DNA from: Crambe crambe
Lineage: Eukaryota; Porifera; Demospongiae; Poecilosclerida; Crambeidae
Length of the DNA stretch: 64,000 nucleotides
Direction of reading: 5' to 3'
Assembly (NCBI GenBank): GCA_963924555.1
Contig: OZ004595.1
Span: 1,426,001 to 1,490,000, forward strand
Positions 3,093-47,300 of the stretch are shown one piece after another. The first letter of the stretch is position 1. Each line of letters opens with the position of its first letter. The notes under the pieces are model-generated. The model saw only the letters and a list, made by a program, of their open reading frames with translations. It made no database searches and was not told the origin of the DNA. Position numbers and translations under genes: made by a program.

Positions 3093-6000
3093 ATGAGTCA
3101 AGGGCGTCCTGCGTTCAAAGATGTTAAGAAAACTGGTTCACTTACGACACATAAAGGCTATGACTACACCTACTCAAAGTACATTATTGGCCAGGGATCT
3201 TTTGGGAAAGTCTTCTTAGGGTGGACAAAGGTAAGAGCTGACATGCCACACCTCCTTTCAGCCTGACTCGACTGCACTGCAGGATGGAAAAGATGAGGTT
3301 GCTGTCAAAGTGATAGATCGGAACTGTTTGAAACAGGACCCAAAATTGAAGGAGAACCTGGAACGCGAGATAAAGATTCTGAAGCTTCTCCGCGGTCACG
3401 AGTATGTCGTTCAGATCCTTGATGCCAAGGTAAGCTTGTAGCTAACCAGTAGTTAGCAACCATGCAAGTGAAACTCCACACTCCATGGGTGCTAGTGGAT
3501 ACCTCATAGATGAATTTTCCATACTTTGAACTGAGCTCTCAATACTTAGCAGTTTGATATTGTTATCTGTCTGTTCATCTCTCTTTCTGTGTGTGTCTGT
3601 CCATCTTTTTTCTGTGTATCCTTGGAATTGTCCTCTGGTTCATATGTACTCCCTCCTCCTTTCCGTCTCGCTAAGGAACCGAGTAAGGACAACGTGATAA
3701 TCATTACCATGGAACTGTGTGACTATGACCTCGACAATCTCATCAAGCAAAGTCCCTTCGGACAGGAGGAAGTGGTTCAGTTTCTGTATCAGCTCGGTTA
3801 GTGAGTAACGGTTTTGGTTTTGGTTCATTTAACTCTAGCGATTTATGGTTATGTACAGAGTACATTAACAGTCCCAAGTAGATATCTTGTTTTTAAATTG
3901 GTTTCTCAAACAATGCTTTGATGGAATCTTTCCAAAAACTTAATGTGTTCTATAATGGTTGGACACTCTCCACACTCCCCAAATCTATTATTAAGAGCTC
4001 AAATAGGAAGTGAAGAAGTCGAAAGTAAAATGTGTTTCTCTGACTTGGACTCTTGCACATATTCAATGTGTACACACAGTTGTGATGGTCTAGCTAGTGA
4101 TTCTTGTACCTAGTGATGCCTGTCTATGTAGTATGGGGACATATGGCTATGCGTGTGGAGTCACTGGGGCAGTATATGGTTTGCACTCTGGGCTTAGACT
4201 GTGAGCTTGAGCTTTTTCTACATTTAATAGTTCAATGACATAGTCAAAGGACCAGCTGCTGTTATATTTTTATCATTCTCTGCTTATTATTCTCAGCTAA
4301 CATGATAAAAATTCAATAGAATTAGTTCTCATAAAATTAGCTTATGTAAAGCCTTAGGGAAATAGTGTTTATGACTTCAGGTATTGGCATGCTATAATAT
4401 AATATCCATAGGCGTATGCATGTGCGTTGTCTAGATAACGAGCGTAGCTATATAAGGACGTTTCTGTGTGCATTTTTTGTATCACCCTGATGAAGGCTAG
4501 AGTATTCTGGTCGAAACGTTGGTGGTTTGTTTCATAAGCTAATTTTATGAGAACTAATTCTATTGAATTTTTATCATTATTTAGCTGAAGGCATGAAGGC
4601 ATTGAGGAAACAGAATATAGTCCATCGAGACCTGAAGCCTGGTAACATTCTCATCAGAGAAGACCCAGGAAGAAGCAGAAAGAGAGTTGTAAGTACAAAC
4701 AAGTATTAGTCAGTCAAATGTTAAGTATGACTCACCCATTCCACTCTTTCTTTGTAATACATATTTTATAGTTCAAATTGGCTGATTTCGGATTTGCTCG
4801 ACATTTTAAGGACGATCATGACAAGAATGTTATGATGAAGAGCTTGGCCGGCACTCCTGTGTACATGGTAAGTCAACGTATGAACAGCTCTTACTCTGTA
4901 CTGTCACAGAGCTTATGATAACAACCTGACACCTGACAATATTGGCATATGTCTGGTCATTATTTGTTTATCAGGACAAAAGTACTGGTCAAAATGCACA
5001 CTGATGCAGGCCTGCAAACTGTACATCATGTCCGGTCAATATCAATTTCTTATCATAAGCACTGCTGTCAATATCTCATGTAGGCACCTGAAGCACTGTC
5101 CTGTGTGTTCTACAAGGGAAAGGTGAGACTGAAACTTTATTCGTACATAGTAAATGCCAAATTTACTAATTTTTATTGATGTGTGCAGCATTATGATGAT
5201 AAAGTGGATATTTGGTCAATTGGAGCGTTGCTGTATAAAGTGATTGTTGGAGACTGTGGATTCTATGCTGTGAGTTAGTCCCTGCAGTTAATGATGTACT
5301 GGGGTTCCACTCTATGCTGTGAGTTAGTCCCTGTAATAATTACAGTTAATGATGTACTGGGGTTCCCCTCTATGCTGTGAGTTAGTCCCTGTAATAATTA
5401 CACAGTTAATGATGTACTCTATGCTATGAGTTAGTCCCTGTAATAATTACAGTTAATGATGTACTGGGGTTCCCCTCTATGCTGTGAGTTAGTCCCTGTA
5501 ATAATTACACAGTTAAAGATGTACTCTATGCTATGAGTTAGTCCCTGTAATAGTTAATGACTGGGGGTCCCCCAGATATTTACATGACACTGTTTTGCAG
5601 AATCTCGAGAAGATTCTTGACTACCTAAAGCACAAGGGTGACGCCATAGCCTTTGAATACACCAAGAGGGAGCTACGTTATGTCAGGGAACTACCCAACT
5701 CTGTGAATGAAAGGCTGGATGAGTGAGTGCATGATAATTAAGGGGCTGGGGCAATTTCCCCTTTCCCTGACAATTATTTGTTTGTTTGTTTGTTTGTTGT
5801 TTGTGTTTTAAAAGGCCGTTTCGTCAGCATATGAATGAACTTCTCCGCAAAATGCTAAAGTTTGACCCCAGAGAACGCATGTCTTTCCAAAAGTTTTTTG
5901 AAGCTGTTGATGACATCATAAGAAAGAAGATTGAAGTGATCAATGTCTTGCATGGAACTTCCTTCAAGATCATAGCTGAAGATGCTAAAGGGTGAGCATG

Positions 6001-9000
6001 AGAAGGCTAGTCCCTTTACCAATTATGAGCATGAGAAGGCTTGAAGTCCCTTTACCAATTATGAGCATGAGAAGGCTTAAAGTCCCTTTACCAATTATGA
6101 GCATGAGAAGGCTTGAAGTCCCTTTACCAATTATGAGCATGAGAAGGCTTGAAGTCCCTTTACCAATTATGAGCATGAGAAGGCTTAAAGTCCCTTTACC
6201 AATTATATGAGCATGAGAAGGCTTGAAGTCCCTTTACCAATTATGAGCATGAAGCTTGAAGTCCCTTTACCAATTATGAGCATGAAGGCTTGATGTACCT
6301 TTATCAATATTATGACCAATGTCAAGATATTACTTTACCGATTATGACATGAAGGCTTGTTATGAATATATCTGTGGGAAGGGCTTTTTTCAGAAACTGT
6401 TTTCAGAAATTAAAAAAAAAAATTACATTTTGATTTCCTGTAGAAATGTATTATACATTGATGTATGTTTCAGTCTCAGTTTTATAATTTTCAGAGCTGA
6501 TATTCTAGTTGAGAAGGTCAATGCTCGATGGCAGCTTCATTCTGAAGAACAGATCATTTTCTCCACAGCATGCCCCCACTTTATCGCCTCTTACAAAACC
6601 CTCTCAACTTCTGAGTTTGAAGAGCTGCTGGAGAGAGCAGGTGGTTCCCATGGTCACGCCAAGCTCTATGTCTTGCCCATCCAGCAACTGAAAGAAACTG
6701 ACTGCAATCCAGACACTTCCTGCTTTGAACCTCTCAGTGAGTTTGTGACGGAGACACTACAGGGTTACTTCTCAGTTGTTACCACCTACCCTTGTCACTA
6801 ATTATTTTTTCCAGGATTTGCCATCGAAAATGGTCAACTGATCAAACTAATGACTGAAGTGAGTTAATGGTATAACATAATGTATATTTTTGGTGGGGGA
6901 TTGCACATATTAACATTGTCTCCCCCTCCCTCTCACCTCCCTCTTCTCCTCTCCCTCTCCCCTCCCTCTCCCTCTTCTTCTCCCCCTCTCCCTCTCACCT
7001 CCCCCTCTCCCTCTTCCCCTCTCCCTCTCCCTCTTCTCCTCCCCCTCTCCCTCTCCCCTCCCTCTCTCCTCTCTCCCTCCCCTACCTCTCCCTCTTCTCC
7101 CCCTATCCCTCTCGCCTTCCTTCCTCTCTCTTAATTTGCAGCAAAAATTTTGTGATGAAATAATATACATGATCGACAGTTTGAAGCTGCAGCAAAAGAT
7201 GCAACTGAAGGGACTGGAGAAACTGGTTCAGTTCACAACGAGTGAGATTGGACAGTCAGAAGAGTGCTCTAAACTGATCGAGGATGTCCACCAAACACTG
7301 GCTAGAGTCTCTCTCACTGCTGAATGGCTGCAGAAAGAGTTGACCATCTTCGATAGGACTGACAGTAGGCTCTATGTGTTACTGACTCAGCTGGAGGAAA
7401 GAAAAGTGGAGGTATTGAAAGTTGCTTTTCCAGGGATGACTTTAGCTTCATTTTGTATTCCTCTTATCCGTCCCCTCCCTCCCTCCCTCCCTCCCTCCCT
7501 ACTCTTTCTTCTCCCCTTCCCCCTCTTCCTCCTCCCCCTCACCCCTCCTCCTCCTCCTCTCCCTCCTCCCTCCTTCCTTCCTCCCTCCTCCTCCTCCTCC
7601 TCTCCCCCTCCTCCTCCTCCCCCCCTCATCCCTCCTCCCTCCTCCTCCTCCTCTCCCCCTCATCCCTCCTCCTCCTCCCCTCCCCTCCCCTCCTCCTCCT
7701 CCCCTCCCCTCCCCTCCTCCTCCTCCCCCTCTTCCCCCTCCTTCCCTCTCTCCCCTACTCCTCCCGCCTCCTTCCTCTTCAGGTCCAACAACTAGCAACA
7801 GAGTTGAAGACCAGATTCATTCCCACACTGGGGAAAACGTTCAGCCTGAAGGACTACGAGAAAAGGTTGCTTGATGTCACCCACAAAGCCAAAGGACTCT
7901 CCAAGCTTCAGGTACGTAATGCATAAACCCTTCAAATATATCTGATAGCCTCAAAATGTGGATCTTTCATCACCTCATTCATGCACATATGTACCTGTCT
8001 CTTATAACTTCATCAACCTGATACATAGCCTCTCTCTCTCTCTCTCTCTCTCACTCACTCACTCTCTCCTTCATCATAAATTATGGGATGAAATGCTATA
8101 CTATCCAGACAGTCCTTCCACCTCACCTCCTCGACCTTTCCATCCTATCTCCTTTAATCTTCTCTCTCTACTCTAATTTTACCACCTTCTCCCCTGCCCT
8201 GATAACTCCACCTGTGTGCATCTTTCTTCTGACAGAGAGACGCGATTGTTGGAACATGTCAGGAGATTTATGACGAGTGTGTGAAAATCATACACGAGTC
8301 CACAGAGAAGATCAAGCTCCAACTCATCCCTTTCATCGAGGCCCTCAGGGGCATGCAGTCACTGCACGAGAAGTCGGCTCACATCCTGAACGTGACTGAA
8401 CTTCTCAGTGAAGTGATGAAAGAGAGAGAGCTAATGCTGATGCTAGCTGCTGTGAGTAACAGTGATTTCGACTGTATGTACTGTGGATTTCAGGATAGTT
8501 GTCCCTAAGGAATGAGAAATAGGTAGTGGCTTACGAAGACCTAAGAAACCTGATCCTATAGAATCCTGTATCCACCTTTGTACATGACCACATCCAATCT
8601 AACCAGCTAAATAGAGTGTTTCTCCTTTCCATAGAACAACAAAGGAACCTCAGTTCCTCTTCCCGATAACATTGGAGATGCTGCTCTTCCACGGCCTGAC
8701 GATGCAGCTCGTGGTGATGGTCCTCTTTCTCCCACAAACCAGTCAACACTGGAGAATATCATCAAAGGACTGAAGAGGGAGCTGCAGACAGTAAAGAGGG
8801 AACTAGCTAACGAGAAAGTAACGACCCGGGAACTCAAGAGGCAGTTGAACGAAGCCACCAGCAAGCAACGTTTGAGACAAGAGAAGGACGAGGTACCAAT
8901 GGAGGAGAAGACGCTGGAAGTAGCCAGTGTGGATCAGGTAGCTTTGGCTGTCGGCGAAAGTGACTCTCAAGTATTTGAAGATCTCACGAAGCAGTTGAAG

Positions 9001-11256
9001 ATTTTCTGCTCACAAGCGCAAAGGATCACTTTTCCTGCTATGTATGCATGTAATAATAGTGTGTTATTTATATGTTCATATGTAATAGGGTCTCACTAGT
9101 GAGTGTATCACTATTCAATTCCTCATCGTTTCCACTCAAAATATTGAGACTTAGTAGGGTTTTATTACAAGACCCATCCAGATAAAAGTGTGGTTACTAT
9201 AGAAATACAGTTAATAACCTCCAAAAGAGGACAACCTCTCTACAAAGGACAAAAGATTAGGCTCCAAGTGTGTCAATTGTTGTGAAGTTTTACTATTGGT
9301 AATGTGTTATAGGGTACTGGTGTGCATTTGATTTCTGTGTTTCGTTGCAGGCCTGGAGCAGGCTTATTTAGTCCTGATTTGACTGGCATGGAGGAAGACT
9401 TGAACACTCAGCAGCTGTTGACAATGGCGCAGACGTTAGCAGAAACATTGCGTTCTAGCATCCCATCACTACAAGGTATGGAAACTGTTAATAAGTCACA
9501 GAGGGGATGTGATACTATTGATAGGGCTTCTATGTAGGAACAGTACTCATGGAGTAGTATGCAAATAGTTTACTAGAAGTAGTTTACTAGTATGCAAATA
9601 GTTTACTAGATATAGTTTACTAGAAGTAGTATGCAAATAGTTAGTTTACTATAAAGCATCAGTGTTATCAGATTCGGGGATTTATACAGAATCTCTAGTT
9701 TTTTGGAGTAGAAATAGAATAGAATAATGAAAAATAAGTGTTGATTAAAATTAATATTAAAGTAGGTTAAGAATTGAGAAAGTTATAGTGAATGATCAAG
9801 GGGCAAGGTGAATACAAATAGTATAATATACAGTATAGTATACAGTCTAGTATACAGTATAGTATACAGTGTAGTTTACTATTTTATTTTTCATACATAG
9901 GTGGTGATTTGGTGAAATTTGGAAACCCTGAAGAGTGAGTGTGGGATATAACAGAACAGTGTATATGTGTGTGTAGCCATCATACCATCCCTATTACGTC
10001 AAACCTTCTCCCAAGTATAGTTTGACTCTTCTGGTTTCAGTCCCACTAACCATATGCATATGCATAACAATGAGTCCAGAGACACTACACATCCACCCAC
10101 CACCCCTGCATGATGCCAGCCCATTCCTAAGTGCTGAGTCATGGACTGGCCAGCACACTCTTGAAGAATGAACCCATACAATCAAGTCACTTTGTAGTGA
10201 TGATGCCAAGGTTCTTGCTTCTGTTACTAAACTTGTGGGAAGTGGACTCAGGAAGTGTGTGTAGTGTGTCTTATGCAACCTTGAGTACAGTACAAGAGTG
10301 TCTGTTTGATTCTCCATAGACATCATGGTTTGTGAAGTCAGTGCAAGTGTATGGAAGGTCTTCTATTTGTGGTCACGTCACTATCCTGTGTGTACCTGAG
10401 CATGTGATAAATAATACAGTCCATATTACCATTACATTTATTATTTCGTTGTTGAAATATCCTTTAAATGGAGATGAGATAAGAAATCATGGAATTCAAT
10501 CACTTATGGTGAAATGATTTGCAAATGCTTTCTTTAAGATTTTCAATTGAAGGAGGATTCTAGCCCCCAAAGTGGTACAATTCTTATGCTAGCTACTTTT
10601 ATCTCTACTTGTTCACATGACTTCAAGTTTGAAAAGCTGTGTAATAAATACATGAATTAGGGTCAAAAGGTATCATCCAGCTGCTGTGACAATAGCTTGT
10701 GGATTTGTGTATTTTCATTGTCAACATAAGCAGTTGCTCACGTATTTGGTTGAGTGCATGTGTGATTTCTTTACCTCTTTGGTTTAATGCAGTTACAAAG
10801 AAGGAGATGTGGCTATCTTTACTCAACTTGAGACAAAAGGACCAAGACCTGTTATAGCAATTCTTCACTTGGGCTGGCCTAAGCCGTACATGCTCCTGGA
10901 CGTAAAATGCTACAAATTACTCAAAATTAACCCCAGAAAAATGTGTGTTCTCTCTCTCTCTCTCTCTCCCTCCCTCCCTCCCTCCCTCTCTCTCACTCTC
11001 TCTCTCTCTCTCTCACTCACTCGTTACTTCTTATTTTGCTTGCAGTCCAGACTTCTTCTTCGCACGACTTTCTGAACCCCCACGGAAAATGAAACTAGAG
11101 GAACATCGGCCCACAGCAGAAACTGTTGGAGAGAAAACCGGTGACTTCTATCGCGTGGGTGCCAATCCAGTGGACTTGAAATTCTGCAACGACTTCTCCC
11201 TCCTTCGACGTCATCACCATGCGCCTTCACCAACCAAGCCCAAGAGAGGTCTTTAA
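3093..11256 (+). CDS. ULK/TBK1-type kinase fused to ubiquitin-like, coiled-coil and FIP200/ATG11-type claw domains
   Basis: Nineteen exons: 3093-3230, 3283-3429, 3676-3796, 4585-4688, 4772-4867, 5084-5122, 5189-5269, 5601-5722, 5815-5991, 6495-6736, 6815-6858, 7142-7411, 7783-7911, 8236-8451, 8635-9041, 9351-9475, 9901-9934, 10793-10942, 11046-11256. Phases agree throughout (950 aa). The kinase spans about residues 30-313: GQGSFGKV loop, VAVK lysine 55, HRDLKPGN at 149, LADFG with D175, YMAPE at 205. It has all catalytic residues and looks ULK/TBK1-like. A ubiquitin-like fold follows (about 320-405), as in TBK1 and at the FIP200 N-terminus, then coiled coil (about 430-800). The C-terminus (about 831-945) matches the FIP200/ATG11 claw: EGDVAIF, KPYMLLDV, DFFFARL, GDFYRVGA. 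It may be an autophagy-initiating kinase carrying its own scaffold. The weakest junction is the donor after 10942 (GTGTGT). Confidence 0.8.
4267..4578. mobile_element. Short inverted-repeat element in kinase intron 3, with a hammerhead-like core
   Basis: Two 35 bp arms (4312-4346 and 4533-4567) are perfect reverse complements. The outer flanks both contain TTTTTATCATT (4267-4277 and 4568-4578), a possible target duplication, although this sequence is also part of the longer inverted repeat. Inside, CTGATGA (4487-4493) and GAAAC (4513-4517) bracket a 7 bp hairpin with loop GTAT, which resembles a hammerhead ribozyme core. The right end lies only a few bases before the 3' splice site of exon 4 (AG at 4583-4584). 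A deleted relative is at 42454-42539. It carries no coding capacity, so it is non-autonomous. Confidence 0.65.
5255..5560. repeat. Minisatellite repeating the exon 7 donor site
   Basis: The last bases of exon 7 plus its splice donor (CTATGCT|GTGAGTTAG) recur about every 50-60 bp near 5311, 5371, 5421, 5477 and 5527. The spacer is TCCCTGTAATAATTACAGTTAATGATG-like. Some copies read ATGAGT and so lose the GT. The array fills most of the intron. Confidence 0.85.
5990..6310. repeat. 36 bp minisatellite at the exon 9 donor
   Basis: About eight imperfect copies of a roughly 36 bp unit (GAGCATGAGAAGGCTTGAAG plus TCCCTTTACCAATTAT) begin directly at the 5' splice site of exon 9. The first copy supplies the donor GTGAGC and later copies read ATGAGC. 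Because the unit is a multiple of three, it creates long open frames on both strands that are not coding. Confidence 0.88.
6903..7136 (+). repeat. Pyrimidine-only (CCCTCT)n intron tract
   Basis: Almost pure C/T sequence of irregular CCCTCTCC units fills kinase intron 11 up to its acceptor (AG at 7140-7141). It acts as an oversized polypyrimidine tract and has triplex-forming potential. The proline/serine-rich open frames in it are compositional artefacts. Confidence 0.85.
7470..7782 (+). repeat. Pyrimidine-only (CCT)n intron tract
   Basis: Kinase intron 12 is a C/T tract of CCT and CCCT units running to the acceptor at 7781-7782. No coding meaning is seen. Confidence 0.85.
9476..10792 (+). 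other. Kinase-gene introns 16 and 17
   Basis: Apart from the 34 nt exon at 9901-9934 this is intronic. 9540-9895 holds AT-rich direct repeats (GTTTACTAG, TATAGTATACAG) and a piece of a dispersed repeat with the motif GGTTAAGAATTGAGAAAGTT (9770-9785) that recurs near 25888 and 28123. I see nothing gene-like in 9935-10792. Confidence 0.6.
10950..11025 (+). repeat. (CT)n/(CCCT)n microsatellite before the last kinase exon
   Basis: CT and CCCT repeats lie just upstream of the final acceptor (AG at 11044-11045). Confidence 0.85.
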
Positions 11257-13010: not shown

Positions 13011-13607
13011 CCACAGTGCCATAAACCATCAGATATTCTACCTCTATAAACTAATAAAAGAGGTGTATCATAAAGGTTTTGAAAATCTATGAACCAAAGC
13101 TGTAGCTACAACTTCAATTTTAGCAAACCATAATAATAATTTTTTCTAGTATGCAAGTTCCATCCATATGGTAAGGACATAACCTTGTGCCCGTGGTATG
13201 TGGATGCTTCTATTTCAAAGACAGAGAGGTATTGGAAGCAAGATTCGATTGATCAGGCCCGAAATTGAAACGTAATCCCCCAAGCATCATAAGACACTTT
13301 CTCAAGTTACTGATTGATAGCCACATAATAATTAACCTTGTTTTTCCCAAAATATCGGTCAGGCCTGTGCCTGACTGGCCTTACCTGTTCCACCACCTAT
13401 GAAAGGTCAGCACTCATGAATTGCCTAACAAGGAAGAGTCGTAGTACTGGAAAACAATGTACTGCAGACATTTAAGGCATTCTATAATAACATAGTTATT
13501 ATAATGATTGCTACATAATAATACATTCTGCTGATATTAGAGAGTCAATCTGCATTTAGAGAGAGAGAAAACAAGTCCTTTATCTCTAGCTAATCTCAAA
13601 ATCTACG

Positions 13608-14447
13608 ATGGGCTCTGTAGTTTTCATAATGTTATTGTTGTTCTCTGTGGCCAGTGCTACCACTTCCTGGGACTCTCGACTTCCAGTTTCCGATCCAATT
13701 GCTTTTGTTCGCAGCATTGAACTGGCAGAACCAAGATTCAGCATTCCCAACGAGCTCCGGAATAGAACCCGTGCAAAACTTGGAACTCCTCCTGACCACA
13801 AAAAGGAAGGGTATGTGGTGGGTGGGGCCATCACTGCATTCACAGAGAGTGTGACTGGAATATCCAAGCAAGATATCCTTGATTCGACCCTTTTTGCCCA
13901 GCTGGCAGCCGATAGGAAGTATGATCGTGAAAAGGATACTGTCGACTGGTACAGTTACTACAAATACATTCTCGGAAATATAGGTTTTGTCATCGAGTCT
14001 TTTAATTTCAACGAGTATCAGTCAAAAGGGAATTCTTTTTCCATGGATAAAGTGGTGGTTGAGATTTTAGCTTCTATTGCTACTGGCGACTCTGTGGCCA
14101 TAACCGCAGCCGTTCTCGATGCAATGAGAGGCATGGCAGACAGCGATAATCGAATCACGCTCTTTAGCCAACAGAGTGCCACAACCACATCAGGCAACTT
14201 CCAAATTTATCCATGCGAGCAAGCAAGCACTGGTGAAGTCTCAATGGCACTGGGAGCATTTTATTTTAAAGCTTCCAGCCACAAGACAAATTTCCTCTTT
14301 TTCAGCTATGGGAGCTCTAGCACCCATTTCTACAAAGGAGCACAGAAGACAGTGTTGAATCAGAAAATCTATGCTCAAGTGAGGTCAGATGTTAGTGCCA
14401 AACTTGGAAATAATGCTGTGAACTTGGTTGCTTCAATTGAACTGTGA
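13608..14447 (+). CDS. Secreted intronless protein of an unrecognised family (paralogue A)
   Basis: A single open frame of 279 aa starts at ATG 13608. The first 18 residues (MGSVVFIMLLLFSVASAT) form a clear signal peptide, so it should be secreted. It shares with the protein at 17849-18616 the core Q-x-D-I/V-L-x-S/Y-LFAQLAAD, a W-x-x-Y/F-x-x-Y/F-x-Y-I/V-L-x-N-I-G-F/W-V motif and a C-terminal tail ending in similar strands. There are no disulphide-rich modules. It has no introns although nearby genes have 5-31 exons. A hairpin and AATAAA signal follow the stop. I do not recognise the function; horizontal origin or retroposition are possible. Confidence 0.8.
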   Translation: MGSVVFIMLLLFSVASATTSWDSRLPVSDPIAFVRSIELAEPRFSIPNELRNRTRAKLGTPPDHKKEGYVVGGAITAFTESVTGISKQDILDSTLFAQLAADRKYDREKDTVDWYSYYKYILGNIGFVIESFNFNEYQSKGNSFSMDKVVVEILASIATGDSVAITAAVLDAMRGMADSDNRITLFSQQSATTTSGNFQIYPCEQASTGEVSMALGAFYFKASSHKTNFLFFSYGSSSTHFYKGAQKTVLNQKIYAQVRSDVSAKLGNNAVNLVASIEL

Positions 14448-14706: not shown

Positions 14707-14732
14707 AAGAACAACCAAATAGCTAGTTATTG

Positions 14733-17249
14733 ATGGATCCTGAATTTTCTTACTCCTCCATTGAGCTCAATAAAGAAGACACCATCGGTTCGGGATCATA
14801 TGGAGCCGTCTACAAAGCCAAATGCGATAAACTAGAGTGTGCAGCAAAGTTGCTACACTCAACTTTGTTCGATTCTCGTGATCAAGATACTGACGGTCAG
14901 CAGCCTGTCAGCACAGGTCACCATCACAGGACACCCTTGAATCGCTTCAGGCAAGAATGCCAGTTCCTGAGTCGCATCAACCACCCCAACATCGTCCAAT
15001 ATCTCGGCACATGCGCAGACCCTGATTCCCATGGATTTGTACTCCTGATGGAGCTCATGGAAGAAAATCTCACACACTTCCTCGAACAGGCATCAGGACC
15101 TCTTCCTCTCCACATCCAGGTCAATATTGGTCATGACGTGATCTTGGCTATCAACTATCTTCATTCTAATAATATCCTCCATCGTGACCTGTCCAGCTAT
15201 AACGTTCTACTCACAGCCAGCCACCGAGCGAAGGTGGCCGATTTTGGAATGTCTTCCATTTTAGGAAACACAATGGGAAACATGTCTCGTACATTGTGTC
15301 CAGGAAATATAGTGTACATGCCTCCAGAGGCACTGGACGAGCCTCCACTTTACGAAAAGAGTCTCGATTTGTTCTCGTTTGGTGTACTCCTTGTACAAAT
15401 ACATTCTCGAGCTTTCCCCCACCCGACTAACCGGTTCAAAACTGTGAAAGTCATGCAACCCATTTATGGTGAAGTTGATGCCAAGATACCTGTGCCTGAG
15501 GTGGAGAGACGCAGGGCTCATATTGAGATGATTGACAGGGATTTTCCGTTCTATCCCATCGTTATCGAATGTCTCAGAGATTCTGAGCGAGAGCGACCTA
15601 CTGCTAGTCGCATCTGTGAAGAGTTCGAACTAATCAAGTCCTCTGATCCATACAGAGAGAGCAAGGAGAAGATGAATGAAGATTCGTTGCTTAGGGAGGA
15701 AAATAGGAGATACATCGAAGAGATTGAACGTTTGCGTGAAAATATTGAAGAGATGGAACAGCAGATGTCTTCGACTGAGCAATTGCTTCTGATACGTGCA
15801 CGAGAGCTTGAAAAGTCTATAAGGACTAATGAAGTGCTTAGGCAGAATGAAGAAGAAGCTAAGATGTGGAAGCAATCCTGTCAGGATATGGAATCTCGAA
15901 TGAAAGATTTGCTAAGAAGCTTTCAAAGTGTGTCTGCAGAAAATGCACGATATAATGATCAGCTTAAATTGCTTGATGACACCGTTATTGACCTCCAGAC
16001 TATCATAAGAGATAGAGAAGATTATATCATCACCACCAAGGCTCGCTTTAATGCTGAAAATCGGAGGATCCAGGAGCGTTTGGAGCAGGGTCGTGACATG
16101 TTTGATGGAGGAATGGATCATGTGACACATGAAACCCCCAATGGATGGATAGATAAAGGTAAGGATACCAGTTCAAAAGTCCATGAGCTTGAGAAGAAGT
16201 TGAAATTGAAAGAGGAGGAAGTGAAAAACTTGAAAGAAAAGATTGCTGACAGAGACAAAAGTATCGAGAAATTGGAGCACCATTGTCAAGCGTTGGAATT
16301 CGCAAAATTAGAAGTAAGGGCGAAGTCACCACCGAAATCACCATTTCCTAAGCCTATAATAAAGCCAAGAGCCCATCTGAATGTGCAGTTCAACTGGGAA
16401 AAGGGACTCAGTGCTCCCTGTTCCATGCAAACGGGATCTACTGCTGTTTACGAAGGGAAGGTTTACTGCAGACCAGCAAGTAGTGAAAACATCTATGAAC
16501 TGTCCTTTCAGGGTGGCATGAAATGGAGACTGGTACAGAAGTGTAGCAACAGTGCCTGTACACTAGTCACTGTTGACAACTTCCTCACAGCTGTTGGAGG
16601 AAAAGGGAGCAAGACGTTACTGAGCTTGATCAAAAGTCCGCATGGTGAGGAATGGCGAGAGATATTTCCACCAATGAGCATTGAGCGCTTCAACGTTGCT
16701 GCCACTTACAGCAATAACACACTGGTTGTTGCTGGAGGATTCATGGGAAGGGGATGGAATAGTATTTCGTGTGTGGAAGTGTTTGATGCTACGACCCATG
16801 TTTGGTCTACAGCCAACCCACTGCCTTATTCCATCTACTCTGCATCGGCTACAATTTCCAATGATTGCGTCTACATTGTTGGCGGATACTTTGAGAAAGA
16901 CCGCAAGAATTCCTCTATTTTGGCATGCCCACTTCGCACTCTCACATCCGAGGAATCTCTGGACTCTTCCGCTTGGTACAATATTTCCGATCTTTCCATG
17001 TGGCACTCAACGTGCATTAACATTAGGGGGAAGCTGGCAGTGGTAGGCGGTGCAGTGCACGACTCGCATAGTGGCACAGTCTGCACTTACAATCTGAATG
17101 CAGATAATTGGACCACGGTGTCCAATCTCCTGCTTCCCCGTTCCGAGTGTCACGTGGCTGTCGTCAACAACAGGAAGATTGTAGTAATTGGAGGAAATAC
17201 GGACAAGGGCGTGACAGACAATGTTGAGATAGGTGACATTATTCTGTGA
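14733..17249 (+). CDS. TKL-type kinase with coiled coil and kelch repeats
   Basis: Intronless, 838 aa from the ATG at 14733. The frame is also open one codon upstream, but that codon is TTG. The kinase domain (about 12-305) has the glycine loop GSGSYGAVYKAK, lysine 39 in CAAKLL, HRDLSSYNVLL, VADFG and YMPPEAL. All core catalytic residues are present, but the catalytic loop has SS in place of the usual K/A-x positions and APE is PPE, as in many TKL/Tyr-like sponge kinases. Residues about 310-540 are Glu/Lys-rich coiled coil. Residues about 550-838 hold five kelch-like blades (AVGGKG, VAGGFM, VGGYF, VVGGAV, VIGGNT), a probable protein-binding propeller. No signal peptide or membrane helix is seen. 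The coiled coil may dimerise the kinase. The substrate is unknown. Confidence 0.88.
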   Translation: MDPEFSYSSIELNKEDTIGSGSYGAVYKAKCDKLECAAKLLHSTLFDSRDQDTDGQQPVSTGHHHRTPLNRFRQECQFLSRINHPNIVQYLGTCADPDSHGFVLLMELMEENLTHFLEQASGPLPLHIQVNIGHDVILAINYLHSNNILHRDLSSYNVLLTASHRAKVADFGMSSILGNTMGNMSRTLCPGNIVYMPPEALDEPPLYEKSLDLFSFGVLLVQIHSRAFPHPTNRFKTVKVMQPIYGEVDAKIPVPEVERRRAHIEMIDRDFPFYPIVIECLRDSERERPTASRICEEFELIKSSDPYRESKEKMNEDSLLREENRRYIEEIERLRENIEEMEQQMSSTEQLLLIRARELEKSIRTNEVLRQNEEEAKMWKQSCQDMESRMKDLLRSFQSVSAENARYNDQLKLLDDTVIDLQTIIRDREDYIITTKARFNAENRRIQERLEQGRDMFDGGMDHVTHETPNGWIDKGKDTSSKVHELEKKLKLKEEEVKNLKEKIADRDKSIEKLEHHCQALEFAKLEVRAKSPPKSPFPKPIIKPRAHLNVQFNWEKGLSAPCSMQTGSTAVYEGKVYCRPASSENIYELSFQGGMKWRLVQKCSNSACTLVTVDNFLTAVGGKGSKTLLSLIKSPHGEEWREIFPPMSIERFNVAATYSNNTLVVAGGFMGRGWNSISCVEVFDATTHVWSTANPLPYSIYSASATISNDCVYIVGGYFEKDRKNSSILACPLRTLTSEESLDSSAWYNISDLSMWHSTCINIRGKLAVVGGAVHDSHSGTVCTYNLNADNWTTVSNLLLPRSECHVAVVNNRKIVVIGGNTDKGVTDNVEIGDIIL

Positions 17250-17848
17250 TCTGTTCATTTGTGTAACTAATATCATGGTTATGTAGGCATGCATCATGAT
17301 AATTATGGCTTCCAACATAGCATTTAATAAGTTATGCCAATGGTATAACCACAAAGATTCCTACCATTGATACCTTACTGTAGTTGAGGGTGGCCTCGTA
17401 CCCATTTTTTTTTCCACAAGGGTATGAGGCTAAGTAAGGTAAGTGTGCAGTAAATGAATCCTTATGGGGGAGGGGAGAGAAGAAGAGGGAGGCTCTTAAA
17501 AGGTAGCTTCATCACAATTATTATTAGAGCGTCAAGAAAGAATGATTAATACTCCCTATGATAAAAGTGTATTCTGAATGTCTTTTAAGTAGACATTGAA
17601 GCATAACACCACCTGATTCTATTGTTTGGTGAGTGCAACTAATTACTATTTTGTCAATAACAATTTGTATTGTGTTTATATATAGTCATGAAGTAGTAAT
17701 AGTTAATACTAAGCTATACTGGTAGTATTGGCTGTAGTCATAGTAATCTGTTGCTGTGTGTATTTGTACCTGTACTAGGAAGTCATGAGCCAAAGCAACA
17801 CCAAACCTGGAAGTGTAGCTAACTAGCTAGCTATATACGGAATATAAA
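17250..17848. other. Intergenic spacer
   Basis: No gene is seen. An inverted repeat (GGCCTCGTACCCAT ... GGGTATGAGGC) lies at about 17391-17431. The remainder is AT-rich. Confidence 0.6.
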
Positions 17849-18616
17849 ATGGCTGATTTGGCTGAAGTATCAGCAACAGAGGCTATTAATAAGCCTATGC
17901 TGAGTGGAATATCAGCTAACAGGAAGAAAAATGGAGGAGGAAAAGATGAATCAATTCAATGCTATATCAACTCGGGAGCAATTGTACTGTTTTCTTCAAC
18001 TGCGAGTGAGCAGAAACAGCAAGATGTCCTTTATTCACTTCTCTTTGCTCAGTTAGCTGCAGACAAGAGAAATAACCGCCAAATGTATCCCCAAGACTGG
18101 TTTGATTATTTCAGTTATGTTCTTCAGAACATTGGCTGGGTTTTGACCAATACAAGTTATGAGGTACAGGTTTCAGATACTGTCTTTGTGACTTCAAGTT
18201 TGGCCTTGAAACAGATGGCACGAAACGGCACTTCTGATGAAAATATTGAGAATTTTCGTAGAGTTTTGAACCTGCTACATGATCTCCCTGAATCTGATAC
18301 AAGTGTTGAGCTTCTTTATGATAATACTTATAATAGGAGCACCTTTGCCACAAATGTCATTTTAGTGTCACCAGAAATCTCATTGAAAGGAGAACTGAAA
18401 TTCAACTTAATCATGATTGCTTTCAAACCATTGAGAGAAGTTGCATCTAGGTATTTGTTCCACATCTATAGTACTAAGAACGTGACCTTTGATAAAGCAA
18501 GAGCCAGTGAAATGGTGCTGAATGAAGCCATTTTTGAAAAAGCCCGAGCAATGATAGTTGAGAAACTTGGAGATAAAGTTAAAACTATGATAAGTGAAAT
18601 TAAGATTTCCATTTAA
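17849..18616 (+). CDS. Signal-less paralogue of the unrecognised family (paralogue B)
   Basis: Intronless, 255 aa, ATG at 17849. Unlike paralogue A it starts with a polar stretch (MADLAEVSATEAINKPM) and has no signal peptide, so it is probably cytosolic or exported differently. The shared core is clear: QKQQDVLYSLLFAQLAADK, then DWFDYFSYVLQNIGWVL. The C-terminal half keeps the strand pattern and the ending EKLGDKVKTMISEIKI, against AKLGNNAVNLVASIEL in paralogue A. The two copies flank the kinase-kelch gene on the same strand, about 3.4 kb apart, consistent with a local duplication. Function not recognised. Confidence 0.78.
   Translation: MADLAEVSATEAINKPMLSGISANRKKNGGGKDESIQCYINSGAIVLFSSTASEQKQQDVLYSLLFAQLAADKRNNRQMYPQDWFDYFSYVLQNIGWVLTNTSYEVQVSDTVFVTSSLALKQMARNGTSDENIENFRRVLNLLHDLPESDTSVELLYDNTYNRSTFATNVILVSPEISLKGELKFNLIMIAFKPLREVASRYLFHIYSTKNVTFDKARASEMVLNEAIFEKARAMIVEKLGDKVKTMISEIKISI

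Positions 18617-28711: not shown

Positions 28712-47300
<18,589 letters not shown>

Follow-up and report, generated by a model that had tools for sequence, protein, structure and literature searches.

The gene at positions 3093-11256 of a 64,000-nucleotide stretch of the genome of the sponge Crambe crambe (contig OZ004595.1, positions 1,426,001 to 1,490,000; hereafter the window) almost certainly encodes a single kinase-claw chain, in which an IKK/TBK1-type module is followed by a short coiled coil and a FIP200/ATG11-type claw. The kinase-claw is a real, conserved and new architecture built from known parts. We found no report in the open-access literature of a protein combining a kinase, a TBK1/IKK-like scaffold and a claw, and as far as that literature goes it is undescribed. 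The gene, its domain order, its catalytic residues and its conservation among sponges were computed for the window protein, and the claw fold and IKK/TBK1-like architecture were computed on a relative.

An earlier note on this DNA had proposed nineteen in-frame exons across the locus, and its coordinates, exon count and frame all hold. We rebuilt 19 exons on the forward strand, the first at 3093-3230 and the last at 11046-11256. All 18 introns are GT-AG, and the spliced coding sequence is a single open frame of 950 amino acids plus stop. In-frame stops lie in 16 of the 18 introns (none in introns 12 and 18), so that intron retention would disrupt the protein. AATAAA or ATTAAA occurs at 10643, 9744, 9756 and 6409, within introns 17, 16 and 9, and these putative poly-A signals make claw-less transcripts possible. 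The coding span is organised as follows (aa, amino acids).

3093..11256 (+): entire kinase-claw coding span; 19 exons, with the same domain order in orthologues and in a second genome copy
3093..5991 (+): exons 1-9, N-terminus and Ser/Thr kinase domain (aa 31-311), from PF00069 and the catalytic residues
5815..6736 (+): exons 9-10, end of the kinase and ubiquitin-like domain (ULD; about aa 316-412), from the ubiquitin profile, the junction hhalign alignment and the model of relative P0001
6495..8451 (+): exons 10-14, helical scaffold resembling the IKK/TBK1 scaffold/dimerization region (about aa 413-642), from the P0001 model
8635..9934 (+): exons 15-17, linker and short coiled coil (aa 643-830), from the exon map; low-confidence in the P0001 model
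9901..11256 (+): exons 17-19, C-terminal FIP200/ATG11-type claw (about aa 829-930)

The full-length window protein was searched against 5.8 billion proteins, with a follow-up profile search; about 8000 candidates were scored and 120 listed in each, and more distant relatives would not appear. Nine relatives stood at the head of the first search, at 887 to 250 bits, and the next protein scored 203. P0001 is 50% identical to the window protein over 98% (52% in a further comparison), and the Amphimedon relative P0003 is 32% identical over 97%. The others are P0002, P0004 (gene name Em0015g1136a, which we read as Ephydatia muelleri), P0005 from Dysidea avara, P0006, P0007 from Corticium candelabrum, P0008 from Sycon ciliatum and the incomplete P0009. 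The profile search added P0121 (432 bits), from Oopsacas minuta, a glass sponge; below it, at 215 bits, comes a protein with ULK-type Pfam domains. The named relatives are all sponges, and among the matches listed there was no further protein with PF10377. With only the tail as query (residues 315-950), no homologue was found at E 0.001 among 7998 candidates, where the full-length query had succeeded. P0004 has the kinase and ULD and a C-terminus that is not claw-like, through model error or loss.

Sponges comprise four classes, and a search of other sponges, proposed in the earlier note, places the same fusion in all of them: Corticium belongs to Homoscleromorpha, Sycon to Calcarea, Oopsacas to Hexactinellida and Dysidea to Demospongiae. 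The kinase-claw is therefore a gene of all four sponge classes and not a one-off fusion. P0001 is a protein of 918 aa from a contig of 2885 bases, and P0006 one of 854 aa from 2837 bases; there is hardly space for introns in either, and we take both contigs, from their length, to be cDNA assemblies. Both hold kinase through claw in one frame, with no sign of a split into two genes; this cDNA-type evidence for one chain comes from relatives, not from C. crambe.

A second copy lies on C19 (L039) of the C. crambe genome, and its exons cover the kinase, the ULD, the helical part and the claw. Its claw exons match the family profile, of which this copy is not a row, at 7.3e-14 and 3.1e-10. A separate TBK1 gene lies on C5, with 55% identity to human TBK1 over the best exon and 36-56% over further exons; the kinase tree places the two together. 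The claw profile gave one match, at E 0.6, on the TBK1 locus (L060), a 9.9 kb stretch that is possibly not the whole gene. Since this TBK1 gene coexists with it, the kinase-claw adds to TBK1 rather than replacing it.

The kinase domain of the window protein is complete, as had been claimed (PF00069, residues 31-311, E 1.7e-55), with K55 (VAVK), D151 (HRD), D175 (DFG) and activation-loop S194 in place. The position of TBK1 S172 and IKKbeta S181 is Ser in all 11 family kinases (S194 in the window) and Thr in all 11 ULKs. Ser is also present in TBK1, in human IKKbeta and in all three RSKs, and is thus not exclusive to IKK/TBK1.

For the remainder of the module we turned to a full-length model of P0001, with a mean predicted local distance difference test score (pLDDT) of 69.8. 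Foldseek ranked IKKbeta, an IKKbeta mutant, TBK1, IKK1 and IKKbeta first to fifth, over 676-693 columns. VIA-align superimposed 496-539 residues on TBK1 entries and 514 on IKKbeta, its best match being the TBK1 kinase domain. Template modelling (TM) scores by target were near 0.4; together with a VIA-align root mean square deviation (rmsd) near 18, they fit long, bent, partly low-confidence helices, and so the comparison shows architecture, not detail. The model has strands and a helix at the ubiquitin-like position, and its pLDDT is mostly below 50 in the part equivalent to the window linker and coiled coil. The kinase, ULD and helical scaffold thus follow one another in P0001 in the IKK/TBK1 order, and on this predicted fold the most fitting description of the window protein is an IKK/TBK1-type kinase with a claw added.

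The ULD claimed in the earlier note finds indirect support. Pfam does not see it in the window protein, and relative P0006 matches PF14560 at E 0.002, short of the cut-off. A family profile of the mid-region reaches single designed variants of ubiquitin at 0.002; its matches to natural ubiquitin become convincing only when repeats are summed, and no TBK1, IKK or FIP200 chain is among the best 60 of its 95 matches. At the kinase-ULD junction, a profile comparison by hhalign finds IKK/TBK1 at 94% (E 1e-7, 80 columns). An hmmscan search gave no TBK1/IKK-specific Pfam match (ULD, coiled coil or NEMO binding) for the window protein; models specific to TBK1/IKK presumably exist in Pfam, and divergence could explain the result.

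The claw is clear from the family profile, and Pfam detects it in the Corticium and Sycon relatives. The predicted C-terminus of P0001 matches the claw fold, supplying the structural match on which the earlier note had staked its claim. That note had called the claw from a sequence signature; the claw itself stands, by family profile and P0001 fold, whereas the window sequence alone does not reveal it and the EGDVAIF motif is not diagnostic. In a leave-group-out profile comparison, P0002 matched at 0.0041 and P0003 at 0.45, and P0001 was not among the 20 rows listed. The reverse comparison gave 5.4e-5 for Oopsacas, 0.0017 for Dysidea and 3.6 for P0006, with neither Corticium nor Sycon in the 15 rows listed. 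In it the human claw scored 0.76 against 0.28 for the best shuffle, and P0156, an unrelated protein of 1693 residues, reached 0.0032 by summed weak stretches. The claw alignments exclude P0009, which stops before any claw, and P0004, whose C-terminus is not claw-like; Oopsacas is absent from alignments A2 and A6, and P0002 is without its N-terminus.

Several results weigh against reading the protein as an IKK/TBK1-type kinase with a FIP200-type claw. No TBK1 or IKK is among the best 60 of 216 PDB sequence matches. In a 29-taxon tree with few TBK1/IKKs (23 of 221 database proteins plus six others, P0009 excluded), the kinase domains of the family branch beside ULK with 74% ultrafast bootstrap support. 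The identity of the window kinase to TBK1/IKKbeta, 27-29%, is not above that to RSK (27-32%). The scaffold parts of the P0001 model are low-confidence, with the large rmsd over long alignments given above. Searched alone, the C-terminal 133 residues of the window protein give no match in Pfam or among PDB chains; a profile of the four demosponge-type claws (window, P0001-P0003) misses FIP200, and in the leave-group-out comparison the window claw scored 2.4, level with the best of 300 shuffles (2.7). The link of the window claw to FIP200 therefore runs via relatives and fold. Finally, only R1584 of the seven mapped pocket residues of human FIP200 is kept in the window protein, and this residue is kept in four of ten sponge claws.

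The best surviving alternative, which we consider doubtful, is that the protein is the sponge IKK of the NF-kappaB pathway, its claw-like tail docking in place of the NEMO-binding tail and playing no part in autophagy. NCBI names the Amphimedon, Sycon and Oopsacas relatives IKK-beta-like (the Corticium protein is TBK1-like and that of Dysidea uncharacterized, with the claw in none of these names), IKKbeta is the top Foldseek match of the P0001 model, and ZU5 and Death domains occur in divergent frames next to the gene. According to passages of PMC13042239, serines of sponge NF-kappaB could be IKK sites. On the other side, no claw is known in IKKs or TBK1, and the claw here is specifically FIP200-like; the kinase domain, moreover, lies nearer ULK than IKKbeta.

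That last placement favours another explanation, in our view unlikely, in which a ULK-type kinase and FIP200-like parts were joined into a hard-wired ULK1-FIP200 complex that is no relative of IKK/TBK1. ULK1/2 are the closest PDB sequence matches (best 60 of 216), identity of the window kinase to ULKs is 34-40%, and in the tree TBK1 comes next outside the pairing with ULK and IKKbeta further out, the sponge family itself being supported at 100%. However, the support for that pairing is weak and the sampling small, the order of kinase, ULD and scaffold fits IKK/TBK1 by fold, the activation-loop residue is Ser as in TBK1/IKKbeta and not the Thr of ULKs, and Pfam found no ULK C-terminal MIT/EAT domain (PF12063) in the window protein. 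Of the ULK/TBK1-like kinase described in the earlier note, the ULK likeness belongs to the kinase domain alone and the TBK1/IKK likeness to the architecture, by the P0001 fold. The family kinase domain may ultimately descend from either the ULK or the TBK1/IKK line.

Much less probable is that the C-terminal domain is a generic small beta-barrel, integrase-like or OB/S1-like, with a coincidental likeness to the claw. Elsewhere in the genome the Pfam ATG11 claw model matches 11 times, nine of these over cut-off. Ten of the 11 were fetched and proved to be repeat frames on several contigs (L009-L018), all reading ...FKEGDMVLVFLP..., which we take to be retroelement integrase C-termini; all ten were rejected as FIP200 claws on account of this common repeat-like, integrase-C-terminus-like sequence. 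Because the model matches a genome repeat, the EGDVAIF motif by itself cannot identify a claw, and the integrase-like repeat can cause claws to be called falsely in animal genomes. The mostly changed pocket and the failure of the window's own claw group to find FIP200 by sequence also suit a generic barrel, and passages of PMC6477179 assign the human claw itself to the OB fold. An error in the gene model, joining a kinase gene to an unrelated claw gene, is barely credible: the intronic poly-A signals allow claw-less transcripts and the cDNA-sized evidence is from relatives, but two such contigs hold the whole chain, the second genome copy retains the claw exons and relatives in four classes keep the domain order.

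The IKK/TBK1-type kinase with a FIP200/ATG11-type claw shares parts with three known systems. With TBK1, IKKepsilon, IKKalpha and IKKbeta it has in common, from the P0001 model, the kinase, ubiquitin-like domain and helical scaffold in that order, together with the activation-loop Ser; it differs in a kinase domain that branches nearer ULK and in existing alongside a separate TBK1 gene. FIP200 (RB1CC1) is not known to contain a kinase, and its central coiled coil is very long; FIP200/ATG11 scaffolds also bind ATG13/ATG101/ATG9 and cargo receptors. The likeness to FIP200/ATG11 lies in the C-terminal claw, by family profile and P0001 fold, whereas the window protein has a kinase, only about 190 aa of linker and coiled coil, and six of the seven mapped pocket residues changed. 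ULK1/2/Atg1 have the kinase domains nearest by sequence, but ULKs carry a C-terminal PF12063 or PF21127, the former not found in the window protein, and are not known to have a ULD, scaffold or claw. In other organisms ULK1/2/Atg1 works with the FIP200/Atg11 scaffold, as stated in parts of PMC7337493 and PMC7511232.

Human cells make TBK1 and FIP200 as two proteins, which receptors and adaptors (NDP52 and NAP1, for example) bring together. With TBK1 and FIP200 parts on one sponge chain, the link would be covalent. We propose, by analogy with TBK1 and IKK, that the scaffold would make a dimer, which the claw would dock on short, possibly phosphorylated, peptide motifs of receptors or adaptors collected at cargo or at a danger platform. 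Crowding would then lead the kinases to phosphorylate each other at S194, and afterwards their neighbours. The architecture and this mechanism of dimerization, claw docking and autoactivation are, taken jointly, reasonably probable. A peptide ligand and a role in autophagy or innate signalling are likewise proposed, and the protein may be the hard-wired selective-autophagy device that the earlier note envisaged. PMC11564117 describes TBK1 adaptors that tie TBK1 to NDP52 and stabilise the TBK1-FIP200 interaction, and PMC7511232 has Atg11 activating Atg1 chiefly through dimerization. The claw binds p62, and mutation of FIP200 N1517, R1573, F1574 or R1584 hurts binding of the p62 FIP200-interacting region (FIR), as given in passages of PMC6477179. 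Of these four FIR-binding residues, the window protein keeps R1584 only, with the alignment uncertain around 1573/1574. Since the pocket residues are mostly changed, the binding partner of the claw may differ, for example an innate-signalling adaptor.

Shi et al. (PMC7337493) describe FIP200, from a 9 Å map, as a composite of a TBK1-like N-terminal part and an Atg11-like C-terminal part. TBK1, in their view, resembles the N-terminal domain of FIP200 with a kinase attached, a relationship that they call structural and presumably evolutionary. This published likeness, hinting at a common origin, underlies a further idea that we consider improbable: the sponge kinase-claw might be a surviving one-chain ancestor, from which TBK1/IKK lost the claw and FIP200 (ULD, scaffold, coil and claw) lost the kinase. 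If true, danger-kinase signalling and the initiation of selective autophagy would stem from one ancestral protein. An actual one-chain protein makes the evolutionary idea testable by phylogeny, and may reveal the way in which selective autophagy came to be coupled to danger signalling. It is also a natural experiment in what a claw contributes to a TBK1/IKK-type kinase, be it location, clustering or substrate choice.

Other searches of the genome covered possible partners and kinase relatives. A kinase-family search gave at least 127 matches, and kinase matches on C13 and C17 (L040, L041) were set aside as other kinase genes, whose likeness to the family ends at the kinase and its immediate end. 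A search for ULK orthologues returned many kinase matches, two of them short, at 40-43% identity, being candidate exons. ATG101 exons are present. The ATG17-like family search produced seven matches, none over cut-off. The human claw as query had no match in the genome, which carries no weight as evidence of absence, and the ULK C-terminal family search matched nowhere in it and is therefore uninformative.

Head-to-head with the kinase-claw gene, at 59-2908 on the reverse strand, lie a Death domain frame (59-838; Pfam 2e-5), a ZU5 frame (1275-2483; Pfam 3.8e-4) and a frame at 2426-2908 without a Pfam match, which probably form one gene. About 220 bases separate its likely start from that of the kinase-claw, so a common promoter is possible. 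Downstream, a single 840-aa open frame at 14727-17249 (+) combines a kinase with kelch repeats. It is flanked at 13590-14447 and 17831-18616 (+) by frames with no Pfam match, both containing, by eye, a FAQLAAD-like stretch. Repetitive open frames on both strands at 35496-36035 appear by eye to be a short tandem repeat.
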